Shown: positions 42,867 to 47,275 of the stretch, in pieces
Layout of the letters: the number at the start of each line of letters is the position of its first letter
Position numbering within the stretch: the stretch's first letter is position 1
Notes under the pieces: generated by a model
The model's input: the letters and a program-made list of their open reading frames with translations, nothing else
Database searches by the model: none
Told to the model about the DNA's origin: nothing
Translations under genes and position numbers: made by a program
Assembly (NCBI GenBank): GCA_913058265.1
Contig: CAJXPQ010000006.1
Location: 62,001 to 126,000, forward strand
DNA length: 64,000 bases
Source: an uncultured Oligoflexia bacterium
GTDB taxonomy: Bacteria; Bdellovibrionota; Bacteriovoracia; Bacteriovoracales; Bacteriovoracaceae
Direction: 5' to 3'

Positions 42867-43703
42867 CTAGTCTGTCTTACTGTTTTCAAACCAGTCTCTG
42901 GCAGTACTATTCTCTATTGAGTGTTCATTGAATTCAAATGTCTCACTTAATTCCCGATCAATTTCACCGGTTTTTATTTTTAATAAATTTTGTTTTGTTT
43001 TTGTGATGATTTTTGTTGGTAGCCAATGTTTACTAGTAACTTTAGAGTAGATTATTTCTGACTCTAGCTTAACTGTCTGTGTACCTTCATAAATGAACTT
43101 CTCAACCTTGGTAATTATCCACTTCCCCTTAGACCATTTTTCTTTTTTCAACGTATAATTAGTTCTTACCGTTCCAGTTGATACTTTTTCTATAACTTCA
43201 ATCTTTTGATTTTTGAATTTGATTTTTATTTCATTGCTATCGTTTAGACCACTTGCGTCTACATACAAGTACCAGTTTCCTTGTTTCTCTAAATATTCGT
43301 AATCCTTAAGCCACTTCTCAAAGCTACTTGCAAAGATTATATTCAATTTATCTCTGATGAGCTCTTTTACTTTAATTTGAATAATATCTGGGATTTTATT
43401 CTTATTGCCTAGGGAGATACCAATCTCATCTTTATACTTGTATGCCTTAATAACCATTGGCGCTGTTATCTGGAAGTGCTTAGAAAGTAACTCAATGACT
43501 TCATCGGATTTGACTGTAAAGCTTATATCTTTATATTGGTTAAAATCATATAGTCTTTTATCTACTGCTGGAATACCTGCTATTGCAGAATTAATCTTCA
43601 GTTGGATTGATAATATTATCCCAAGCTGGAAAATTAAAGATTTTAATATGCTTTTCTTTTTTAAAGGTAACTTTTCCTGCTGCACCTGTAACACCTTTGA
43701 CAT
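42867..43703 (-). CDS. Exported protein of unknown function, out-of-frame overlap with rqcH
   Basis: A protein of up to 278 residues with a basic N-terminus (KLPLKKKSILK) followed by a hydrophobic stretch and a plausible signal cleavage (SIQLKINSAIA, then GIPAVDKRL). The mature part is mixed alpha/beta with many Lys and Glu, and YTLKKEKWSKGKWIITKVEK plus YSKVTSKHWLPTKIITKTK suggest an outer-membrane-lipoprotein-carrier-like beta sheet, which is only a guess. The first 113 nt overlap the 3' end of rqcH in another frame, and the overlap encodes most of the signal peptide. The exact start (ATG 43703 or a GTG 9-18 nt later) is uncertain. Confidence 0.72.
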   Translation of the reverse strand: MSKVLQVQQEKLPLKKKSILKSLIFQLGIILSIQLKINSAIAGIPAVDKRLYDFNQYKDISFTVKSDEVIELLSKHFQITAPMVIKAYKYKDEIGISLGNKNKIPDIIQIKVKELIRDKLNIIFASSFEKWLKDYEYLEKQGNWYLYVDASGLNDSNEIKIKFKNQKIEVIEKVSTGTVRTNYTLKKEKWSKGKWIITKVEKFIYEGTQTVKLESEIIYSKVTSKHWLPTKIITKTKQNLLKIKTGEIDRELSETFEFNEHSIENSTARDWFENSKTD

Positions 43704-44916
43704 TCTTGACCATTGTATAAATCATTTGAACTTCAGTTCGCTCTATTTGTGAATATTTTACCATTGCAGCTGCTACTTTCCCAAATATATCATCACTTAA
43801 TGTGTTTTCTTTTAACTTAATGATAATATGCGCACTTCTATCACCCTCAAGGTGAAACCAATAGTCATCCTTTTTGGCCCATTGCTTTCTCAATCGATCA
43901 TTACCCTGTGCATTGATTCCGACACCAAGCTCCATGTCTTCAAAGGAGAACACTTGTATATTTCCCTCACCAGAGCTCTCTACACTTTTCTTCTTCTCAT
44001 TTCTCCAAATCGGCTTAACAATGACAAGTTCGCTCTTCCTTAAATCTTTAAGGTTATGCCCCTCAAGTTCACTCTGAGTATCTTTTAATCTTACCTTCAG
44101 GATCTTCTCTGCTTTCTTGAAATTTTTTATCTTTTGATACAGTTGATCGCGTCTAACATAATGAGATTTTTCTTTGAATTTTATTTTTATATCATCGATA
44201 AGAAGAACCTTATCTAATTTTTCAAGATTTTCAGTCGTTTCTATAAATTTTAATATATCTTCTTTTTTACCTACTTTTAGCAAGTCATTCTCAATATTTT
44301 TGACTTTTCTTTTTAGGAATTTTTTCTTCTTTGTTTCTGAACTACTAGAAAGAGCTTTCTTATTCTCTTGCTCTAAAAGTTCCTCTATTTCTATAAAGTT
44401 TTTTTCCCTGTATTCACTTTGTTTTTGTCGTCCCACTTCATTAAAGATATCATTGCTCAAGTTATCAGAGACTATCTTCTCCTGTGTCCAAGACTTGAAT
44501 ACTTTCATATGTTCACTTTTGGCATCATAATAGTGATGAGCAAAATATAACTTTCTTCCCATGTAGAAAAAGGCTGCCTTATTTACAACACCCCATTTTT
44601 GATAAGAAATTGTTATAATTCGATCTTGGTCATCGCAATCTATTGAAATAAGAATTGTCGCCGAAAGGTACTTCCTTAAATATTCGAGAAATACATCTTT
44701 CTTCCTGATAAAGCTTGGGATTTGCTTTTCTCCTAACCATATCCCCTCATTACTATTTCCACGTCCTAAACATAAATAATTTGTCTTTCCGGCATATCTC
44801 AAAGAGAATGATAAATAATAGGCTGAGCTATATAATTTTTGAATAAATATTTGCCCATTAACCTCTTGATTAATATCATTAACTTGTTTTTTAATTTGAG
44901 CATAAGACTGAATCAT
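43591..44916 (-). CDS. rqcH: NFACT-family ribosome quality control protein RqcH
   Basis: RqcH (Rqc2/NEMF homologue) binds peptidyl-tRNA-obstructed 50S subunits and directs C-terminal alanine tailing. The 441-residue product has the NFACT-N domain with the key Asp-Arg pair in DDQDRIITI (D98-R99, close to D97-R98 of Bacillus subtilis), a coiled-coil middle (about 200-300) and the NFACT-R domain (about 349-365, DYWFHLEGDRSAHIIIKL). It is shorter than the roughly 570-residue Bacillus protein, mainly through a shorter middle. The true start is the ATG at 44916: the longer frame extends antisense into mutS2. It is divergent from mutS2. Confidence 0.9.
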   Translation of the reverse strand: MIQSYAQIKKQVNDINQEVNGQIFIQKLYSSAYYLSFSLRYAGKTNYLCLGRGNSNEGIWLGEKQIPSFIRKKDVFLEYLRKYLSATILISIDCDDQDRIITISYQKWGVVNKAAFFYMGRKLYFAHHYYDAKSEHMKVFKSWTQEKIVSDNLSNDIFNEVGRQKQSEYREKNFIEIEELLEQENKKALSSSSETKKKKFLKRKVKNIENDLLKVGKKEDILKFIETTENLEKLDKVLLIDDIKIKFKEKSHYVRRDQLYQKIKNFKKAEKILKVRLKDTQSELEGHNLKDLRKSELVIVKPIWRNEKKKSVESSGEGNIQVFSFEDMELGVGINAQGNDRLRKQWAKKDDYWFHLEGDRSAHIIIKLKENTLSDDIFGKVAAAMVKYSQIERTEVQMIYTMVKNVKGVTGAAGKVTFKKEKHIKIFNFPAWDNIINPTED

Positions 44917-47275
44917 GACGACTAATATACCTAGAGAACCTATTGATCTACAACTTATTGAGTGGCCAGAAGTTGAAAAACTAGTACAAAACTGTGCCTT
45001 TTTTGATGAAACCAAGAATAATATAACAAATACGACCCATGACCTTGTATTCATTCAAAATATACTAGCGAATACGAGTACCTTAATTCACTTTGCCAAC
45101 GATCAAGATTTTCTCTCACTTGTTTCGAGTATGCTAACTTTAAGCTCTGATTTTTTGTCAAAAAATGAACTGATTAAGCTCAAAAAATCTCATGCGATTC
45201 CATTAAGTGAAATACACACAATTCTAACCTTTATAGAGTTCTATAAAGAACATTTTCGCACTATTCATAAATATTTTCCTGATGAAGTTAATTTTGATCA
45301 GAACAGATTTATGCAACTGATTAACAAAGATATCCTAAAAGAGTTCAGATCATTTGTTTCACAAGATGGTGAGATTAATCTTGAAAGACACCCACAGGTT
45401 AGGCATCTTATAGTTAAAATTAGAACAATTGAAGAGACTATAAGAAGTTCCTTAAACCACAGTCTTAGTAGCCCTGATCTTAGTAGTAAAATACAGTTTT
45501 CAACAATAGATATCATTAATGATAGATACGTTATTCCAATTAAGAGTGATGCTTACAACCGATCAATCGGTACAATTGTCCATCGCTCTGATAGCGGGAA
45601 TACACTTTATGTTGAGCCTAAGAACATTTCAAAATTAAATTATCAAAGAGTTGAACTACTAGTTGAACTCACAGCAATTATTAACAAAATTGAAGCTAAA
45701 CTTACTAAAACACTTCAATTACACTTGCCAAGTATCACACATATTATGGACTTTACTTTTTTACTTGACGATATTTCTGCCAGAGTTAAATTTGCTATTG
45801 ATCACGAATTAAATTTCCCCATTTTAACTGAGCGTATGGGCTTCAAATATAAGGAAGCTTTTCATCTTTTAATAAAAGACCCCATTAAGAATGATATCTC
45901 TCTAGATGAAGATCACGAGGGACTCATCATTTCTGGTCCAAATACTGGTGGAAAGACAGCTACACTTAAGCTTCTCGCCATCAATCAGCTATTAGTTAGA
46001 GCCGGGCTATATGTACCCTGTAGTGAGTGCGAAATGCATCTTTACGACTGTCTTTTTTATTATGGTAACGATAATCAAGATATTAATAATGGTTTAAGTT
46101 CTTTCTCTGCAGAGGTCCATGGCTATACAAATCTCTTTAATCAACTCAAAGAGACTAATCTTATTTTAATTGATGAAATTTTTAATTCTACATCATCAGA
46201 AGAGGCATCTGCCTTAGCTATTGCTCTCTTTGAAAATATTAATAGTTATAAAAAGTCCCATATTATTGTTTCCTCTCATCATCAAACTTTAAAAACTCTC
46301 CTCCACCAGAATGATAAATTTATTTCTGCACATGTTGGTTTTAATATGGACAATAATACTCCTACATATAAATTACAGTATGGTTCTCCTGGAGCGTCAC
46401 AGGCACTTAGAATTTTCAAGCACATAACTTCTAAAGATGATCATTTTAGAAATATTTATGAGCGATCTATACAATTGCTTGATAATAAATCTCTTCACTA
46501 TGAAAAATTACTCGACTCCCTTGCTCACAAAGAGCATGAACTTAATAAGACGCTTGCTAATAATAATCAAATAAATCATGAACTAAAAAATCAAAAGATG
46601 GCAATGCAGGGAGTGATCAAGATTAAAATTGATGATGCGGTTGCTAAGACTGAAAAGAAACTACATAAACTAATTGGTAAAGCAGAGCAACTTATACAAG
46701 ATGTTAAGCAAGGCTCACTAACAAAACCAAAGCAAGTTCATAGTAAAGGGCACTCAATATCAAGTGAGTTAAATACCTTTAAAGAGTCTGACTCAAGCGA
46801 CACCTCAAAGTACGTTAATTTATCAATACCTTCTCAATTTATTGAGGGTGAGCATTACTTTTCACTTAAACTTGAAAAGACTGTTGTACTTAAAAAGATA
46901 GAAGCAAATAAAAAACAGGCCCTCATTACTGTTGGCAATATATCAATGCGCGTTCCACTCACAACACTCAGAGTAGCCAATAAATCACAGGTTATAAATG
47001 TAAAACCTGATATTTCAATACAGGTTGAGACTGTCGAAAGAAGTAAAATTGAATATGATTGTCGGGGAATGCGATTAGAAGAGTTTGAAGCTTTGATCCA
47101 AAATATTAGCAGTGATCTTATGTTAGAAAAGATACCCTTCGTGACAATCATCCACGGCCATGGAACAGGTACTTTAAAAAGCTGGTTGCGCTCATTTGTA
47201 AAAAAGCACCCTGATCTTATGATTATTCCTAATGATACTGGAAATGATGGGGAGACTCAGGTTCAGCTAATTTAA
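44915..47275 (+). CDS. mutS2: Endonuclease MutS2 (ribosome collision factor RqcU)
   Basis: A 786-residue MutS2: clamp and lever helices, ATPase with Walker A GPNTGGKT (about 341-348) and Walker B LILIDE (about 415-420), a coiled-coil arm, a small KOW-like domain (about 645-690) and a C-terminal Smr domain (about 710-786) with DCRGMRLEEF and HGHGTGTLKSWLR. The residues after Walker B read IFNSTSSEEASALA where most MutS2 proteins have LGxGTDPxEGxALA, a notable divergence. MutS2 splits collided ribosomes and in some bacteria cleaves the mRNA through Smr. The start at 44915 is required to include the first helix; no strong ribosome-binding site is visible. Confidence 0.94.
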   Translation: MTTNIPREPIDLQLIEWPEVEKLVQNCAFFDETKNNITNTTHDLVFIQNILANTSTLIHFANDQDFLSLVSSMLTLSSDFLSKNELIKLKKSHAIPLSEIHTILTFIEFYKEHFRTIHKYFPDEVNFDQNRFMQLINKDILKEFRSFVSQDGEINLERHPQVRHLIVKIRTIEETIRSSLNHSLSSPDLSSKIQFSTIDIINDRYVIPIKSDAYNRSIGTIVHRSDSGNTLYVEPKNISKLNYQRVELLVELTAIINKIEAKLTKTLQLHLPSITHIMDFTFLLDDISARVKFAIDHELNFPILTERMGFKYKEAFHLLIKDPIKNDISLDEDHEGLIISGPNTGGKTATLKLLAINQLLVRAGLYVPCSECEMHLYDCLFYYGNDNQDINNGLSSFSAEVHGYTNLFNQLKETNLILIDEIFNSTSSEEASALAIALFENINSYKKSHIIVSSHHQTLKTLLHQNDKFISAHVGFNMDNNTPTYKLQYGSPGASQALRIFKHITSKDDHFRNIYERSIQLLDNKSLHYEKLLDSLAHKEHELNKTLANNNQINHELKNQKMAMQGVIKIKIDDAVAKTEKKLHKLIGKAEQLIQDVKQGSLTKPKQVHSKGHSISSELNTFKESDSSDTSKYVNLSIPSQFIEGEHYFSLKLEKTVVLKKIEANKKQALITVGNISMRVPLTTLRVANKSQVINVKPDISIQVETVERSKIEYDCRGMRLEEFEALIQNISSDLMLEKIPFVTIIHGHGTGTLKSWLRSFVKKHPDLMIIPNDTGNDGETQVQLI

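Follow-up and report, generated by a model that had tools for sequence, protein, structure and literature searches.

A start-codon overlap of mutS2 and a gene for an RqcH-like protein conserved across a family of Bdellovibrionota

Proteins of the RqcH/NEMF type recruit tRNA-Ala to the 50S subunit and add C-terminal tails to nascent chains, together with RqcP. In the pathway of Bacillus subtilis, MutS2 (RqcU) acts upstream of RqcH, and published work reports MutS2 in 97% of RqcH-bearing genomes and a strong co-occurrence of the two across bacteria (PMC10897456, PMC11633108). We found no mention of gene linkage between mutS2 and rqcH in the passages searched. The same two factors are encoded at the locus described here, where they are likewise predicted to act in series, by ribosome splitting followed by tailing on the 50S subunit. 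Compared to the B. subtilis-type pathway, however, the two genes are adjacent and divergent and share their start codons, and the RqcH lacks the HhH domain.

Three further systems resemble the locus in part. Divergent overlaps, in which genes on opposite strands overlap by a few bases at their 5' ends, make up only ~1% of prokaryotic overlaps and are under-represented, and most of the long ones reflect mis-annotation (PMC2174442, PMC2478687). The present pair has the same geometry, but its gap of exactly -2 is retained in 28/37 genera of a family, and its products catalyse successive steps of a single pathway. Leaderless bacterial genes are marked by a TANNNT motif ~12 nt upstream of the start (PMC3160421), that is, by a hexamer just before the ATG in place of a Shine-Dalgarno (SD) sequence. 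Such a class exists in the genome studied here, whereas the candidate hexamers of the present pair would lie among the codons of the opposite gene. In the EcoRV restriction-modification system, overlapping divergent promoters exclude simultaneous polymerase binding (PMC5333194), and by analogy the same mutual exclusion may operate between mutS2 and rqcH. The EcoRV locus nevertheless differs by its intergenic region and its C-protein regulator, since mutS2-rqcH lacks intergenic DNA and no regulator is known for it.

The window analysed is a stretch of 64,000 nucleotides from an uncultured Oligoflexia bacterium, and the features of the locus are collected in Table 1.

Table 1. Features of the mutS2-rqcH locus, in window coordinates.
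Feature	Coordinates	Strand	Basis
RqcH-like NFACT protein, 441 aa: NFACT-N, coiled coil, NFACT-R, without HhH	43591..44916	-	Pfam, profile, Foldseek
Alternative site of sigma-70 type for mutS2, within rqcH, ATGATA-17-TATAAT	44808..44836	+	weak; would give a leader of ~70 nt
Candidate -10 of mutS2 (CATAAG, weak), 8 nt ahead of ATG, inside rqcH codons 4-6	44901..44906	+	sequence; function inferred
CATG, two start codons overlapping by two bases	44914..44917		sequence; exact overlap in 40/53 family genomes
MutS2/RqcU, 786 aa: MutS core, domain V ATPase, SMR, weak MSSS (KOW-like) match	44915..47275	+	TIGR01069, Pfam, profile
Candidate -10 TATATT for rqcH, 7 nt before ATG, inside mutS2 codons 4-5	44924..44929	-	sequence; function inferred

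Domain and profile matches bear out the identities that the first-pass annotation had given to both genes, with the minus-strand product as an HhH-less variant of RqcH. The plus-strand protein scores 412.6 bits against TIGR01069, above the equivalog cut-off of 400, and matches MutS_V and Smr of Pfam. It consists of the MutS core, the domain V ATPase and a C-terminal SMR domain, and lacks MutS domains I and II. The family MutS2 profile aligns over nearly its full length with B. subtilis MutS2 (8qpp), and this alignment includes the region of MSSS, the KOW domain that binds the ribosome in MutS2, which by itself scores 16 bits, under its cut-off of 26.8. The gene is single-copy in its own genome, the second match of the MutS2 profile being below the cut-off and MutS1-like. 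The Walker B region (MutS2 residues ~420-432) reads DEIFNSTSSEEAS throughout the family, compared to DELGAGTDPQEGA in B. subtilis MutS2.

Judged by its sequence, the minus-strand protein is an HhH-less RqcH-like protein. NFACT-R_1 of Pfam is matched at 37.2 bits against a cut-off of 29.8 and recurs in 29/29 family members, 18 of which also match NFACT_N. The DR motif, which in RqcH selects tRNA-Ala (PMC8373112), corresponds to D98-R99; it aligns with D97-R98 of B. subtilis RqcH and is kept by 90% or more of the family members. Alignment of the family RqcH profile with B. subtilis RqcH (7aqc) gave two blocks, residues 22-110 against 21-109 and residues 169-432 against 282-556. Since only ~58 residues stand between the blocks where RqcH has ~172 (441 residues in total against 570), the HhH domain is missing. 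For the coiled coil, long helices are predicted at residues 194-215 and 252-284 in a low-confidence structure model. Foldseek search with this model put RqcH at the top, and all 13 matches with E <= 0.001 were of the RqcH, Rqc2, NEMF or FbpA type; as the model was built from two input sequences and has a pLDDT of 51, its agreement with the profile carries little weight of its own. The protein is a variant of RqcH for which we found no described mechanism. The gene is single-copy in its genome, where a search for S4 proteins recognised no small Hsp15/RqcP-like member. The sole small S4 protein (73 residues, G000:C8:72990) is YbcJ-like by eye. The genome also contains tmRNA.

At the junction, the letters at 44910-44923 read gaatCATGacgact, with C44914, A44915, T44916 and G44917. 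The ATG of mutS2 (44915-44917, plus strand) opens a frame of 786 codons and that of rqcH (44916-44914, minus strand) one of 441 codons. The overlap of the two genes in CATG, first pointed out from the sequence of the window, is therefore real. It could nevertheless be an artefact of ORF reading if one of the proteins really began elsewhere. Divergent overlaps in databases are often mispredicted, as were all those longer than 60 bp that were checked in one study (PMC2478687), and in the window genome the rqcH frame stays open for 138 nt upstream of its ATG, up to a further in-frame ATG at 45054. This longer frame, however, is not conserved, and in many relatives the open stretch ahead of the rqcH ATG measures only 6-27 nt. 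In mutS2, a stop codon closes the frame 6 nt before its ATG, and in many family genomes this frame is shut within 3-9 nt upstream. Later starts are also scarce. In the window genome, codons 2-40 of mutS2 contain no other start, and the first alternative in rqcH comes at codon 39 or later; among 40 family genomes, 30 have no alternative start in mutS2 codons 2-17 and 19 have none in rqcH codons 2-22. Moreover, the same pair of ATGs recurs in 28 genera, and the conserved N-terminus of RqcH, MIQxY, begins exactly at the rqcH ATG of CATG. Because MIQxY begins at this ATG and the upstream frames of relatives close early, both starts as originally read are very likely right, and a mis-called start is a highly improbable explanation of the overlap.

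We surveyed 59 genomes of the family, which belongs to the Bdellovibrionota and is probably the Bacteriovoracaceae, for head-to-head mutS2-rqcH pairs with small or negative gaps, as the first-pass annotation had proposed. Both genes are present in 49/59 genomes and lie on the same contig in 44 of these 49. All 44 same-contig pairs are head to head, and 33 of them share the exact 2-base ATG/ATG overlap. Of the other five of the 49, G056 has a contig break right at the junction, G041 is too fragmented for a verdict, and in G017, G022 and G023 the genes are unlinked. With nine more genomes of the family added from the phylum sample, the exact overlap is found in 40/53 genomes and 28/37 genera. 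The CATG junction also occurs in a named relative, Bacteriovorax sp. LF-bin-6, whose lineage is our ground for assigning the family to the Bacteriovoracaceae. Three genomes of one genus have CATATG instead of CATG, one family genome has an interrupted locus, and the other pairs have gaps from -26 to 51, including 6, 9, 15 and 51, some of the start calls being uncertain. Across the family, the two proteins share only ~31-48% identity with the copies in the window. The overlap is thus confirmed, and more strongly than the first-pass annotation could know. On a quick MutS2 tree, rooted by three genomes of other families and with several weak forks, parsimony requires nine changes, and the shared start codons most simply date to the ancestor of the family. 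In four genomes, rqcH was found but mutS2 was not matched (G007 and G053 of genus g8, G026 and G040), and as some of these are near-complete, RqcH apparently can persist without MutS2. In one genome (G034), neither gene was matched.

The arrangement is different elsewhere in the phylum. In most other families of a sample of 144 genomes, mutS2 and rqcH are far apart, including in single-contig genomes of family f6. The two genes are head to head with larger gaps in families f17, f20 and f24, and in family f7 they form a tandem on one strand with rqcH upstream (G078, G085 and G091). Outside the phylum, the family RqcH profile found no rqcH within ~4 kb of ~78 mutS2 loci, mostly from Firmicutes, although a very divergent RqcH could escape this profile. 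Unlinked genes in relatives, which had been named beforehand as evidence against the reading, are therefore seen in three family genomes and in most other families of the phylum, whereas the family is otherwise head to head. We found no published report of a conserved mutS2-rqcH start-codon overlap in a literature search that covered few subscription papers. The tie between MutS2 and RqcH has so far consisted of genetics and of presence and absence across genomes; to these is now added chromosomal linkage, in two arrangements within one phylum. As linkage and overlap are held through deep divergence, they provide independent genomic support for a joint function of the two proteins. The placement of both genes in one pathway by the first-pass annotation agrees with published work, which puts MutS2 upstream of RqcH (PMC10897456, PMC11633108).

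How far such a junction departs from expectation was judged from 612 kb of the same genome, in which a simple ORF caller gave 78 divergent pairs, an approximate figure. A gap of -2 occurs in 3/78 of these pairs, and gaps from -1 to +10 in 0/78; the mutS2-rqcH pair, with its -2 in 40/53 family genomes (28/37 genera), thus exceeds chance. Besides mutS2-rqcH, CATG is common to the starts of a 566-residue membrane protein and a 140-residue protein (G000:C6:49015-49018) and to those of proteins of 266 and 232 residues (G000:C11:5419-5422). As two more divergent pairs show it, the CATG geometry seems to be a recurrent though rare mode in this genome. The second of these pairs (C11:5420) was considered as a control for lock-in and dropped, being too poorly conserved.

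A divergent pair coding for SpoT-like and PgpA-like proteins (named by eye), with a gap of 43 nt, served as control instead. It is head to head in 30/30 family genomes, and its gap spans 37 to 92 across the family. Since the control keeps its order while its gap varies, conservation of gene order is ordinary in this family, but conservation of an exact start overlap is not. The comparison leaves room for a neutral explanation, because indels find no intergenic DNA at an overlap in which to accumulate. On this account the overlap arose once in the family ancestor, has no regulatory role and persists since there is no intergenic DNA to change and any change of the A or T in CATG kills both starts. 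A single origin would account for the pattern, the length of the control gap would vary only because intergenic DNA can vary, and the synonymous evidence for embedded promoters, described below, is weak or confounded. Against it, escape is easy and is seen, in the CATATG of one genus, in the gaps of 6, 9, 15 and 51 and in the nine changes on the tree; as such escapes occur, the trap is not complete. Moreover, most lineages still hold exactly -2 despite the deep divergence of the proteins. We regard neutral retention as a reasonable possibility, though a somewhat doubtful one.

What else could hold the two starts together depends on how the genes are initiated. In the same 612 kb, 20/249 genes carry a TATAAT-like hexamer 5-9 nt ahead of the ATG, and an SD sequence of at least 4 is present in 1/20 of these genes compared to 127/229 of the others. 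As the hexamer-bearing genes are almost devoid of SD sequences, this genome has a leaderless gene class. The first-pass annotation had placed the promoter and leader of each gene inside its partner. Geometry indeed forces any such element into the partner gene, but with a leaderless class in the genome the assumption that both genes have a leader may be wrong.

The candidate -10 elements lie within the first codons of the opposite genes. That of rqcH, TATATT at -13 to -8, is made by the mutS2 codons AAT ATA; it is the same in G043, G009 and G055, and reads TATACT in G036. Where codon 5 of mutS2 encodes Ile, it is ATA in 6/8 genomes (2.2 expected). In place of the CATAAG of the window on the mutS2 side, several relatives have TATAAT, TATAGT or TATAAG. 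Synonymous shuffles reach the -10-like signal of mutS2 in 6/300 cases. That of rqcH shows no overall excess, shuffles reaching it in 110/300. An SD sequence for mutS2 is present in 9/40 family genomes against 10.3 imposed by the rqcH peptide, which is the chance level, and SD-like 4-mers for rqcH in 23/40 (17.9 expected). A-ending codons are in excess at codon 5 of mutS2 (23 against 12.6) and at codon 8 of rqcH (24 against 12.6). These single-codon excesses were not relied on, because they shrink after allowing for a genome-wide, ~1.2-fold excess of A-ending codons at gene starts, and the synonymous tests scan many positions, so that no single z-score of 3 to 4 is conclusive. Demonstration of embedded promoters by synonymous constraint was accordingly set aside as weak or confounded by this codon bias.

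The first-pass annotation had gone on to propose mutually exclusive or interference-based expression, an excludon-like arrangement in which the leaders would run through the partner gene and the two genes would repress each other. That any leader is forced into the partner by geometry agrees with this proposal, as does the sigma-70-like site 79 nt upstream of mutS2, inside rqcH. The consensus promoter scan that gave this site, however, found 4 sites at the junction compared to 3.2 in shuffled sequences, which is the shuffled level. In addition, the two products act in series in one pathway (PMC10897456), so excluding one of them has no evident benefit, and the leaderless class of the genome speaks against long leaders. 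With the synonymous tests weak or confounded as well, the proposal is unsupported, and we consider alternative expression of the two genes quite improbable.

We tentatively prefer, at somewhat short of an even chance, that the overlap is kept through leaderless or very short-leader initiation from promoters in the opposite first codons, which couples the two genes; neutral retention comes close behind. In this coupling model, both genes would be initiated without a leader or with a very short one, and the geometry would be kept because leaders are absent or very short. The promoter of each gene would lie in the first codons of the other, such that the footprints of two RNA polymerases would be centred on the same point and overlap. 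Through this single control point the genes would be coupled and their outputs balanced against each other, by competition on each DNA copy rather than by an on/off choice in each cell. Of the two products, MutS2/RqcU would split collided ribosomes, and the HhH-less RqcH would add a tail to the nascent chain that stays on the 50S subunit. For the coupling, the synonymous tests give a hint at most, as A-ending codons near gene starts confound them. Against it stand the weak mutS2 hexamer of the window, the SD-like 4-mers of rqcH, the absence of an overall excess on the rqcH side and the escapes from the overlap, and mutS2 may also have a promoter with a longer leader.

An extended form of the coupling model, which we think unlikely as a whole, treats the first codons of the two quality-control genes as a family-wide element of ~40 bp that yields two divergent leaderless mRNAs from CATG. 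Polymerase competition would set the ratio of splitter to tailing factor, and through leaderless initiation both messages might stay translatable when stalling impairs normal initiation. The locus is a naturally occurring case in which to study how cells set the MutS2/RqcH ratio, and a divergent overlap conserved for so long provides a test bed for ideas on overlapping promoters and leaderless initiation.

The two genes also overlap their outer neighbours. Downstream of rqcH, a minus-strand frame of 278 residues without family match (42867-43703) overlaps the rqcH 3' end by ~110 nt, and its real start may lie further in. On the other side, mutS2 converges with a signal peptidase gene, and their 3' ends overlap by 9 nt (47267-47275).
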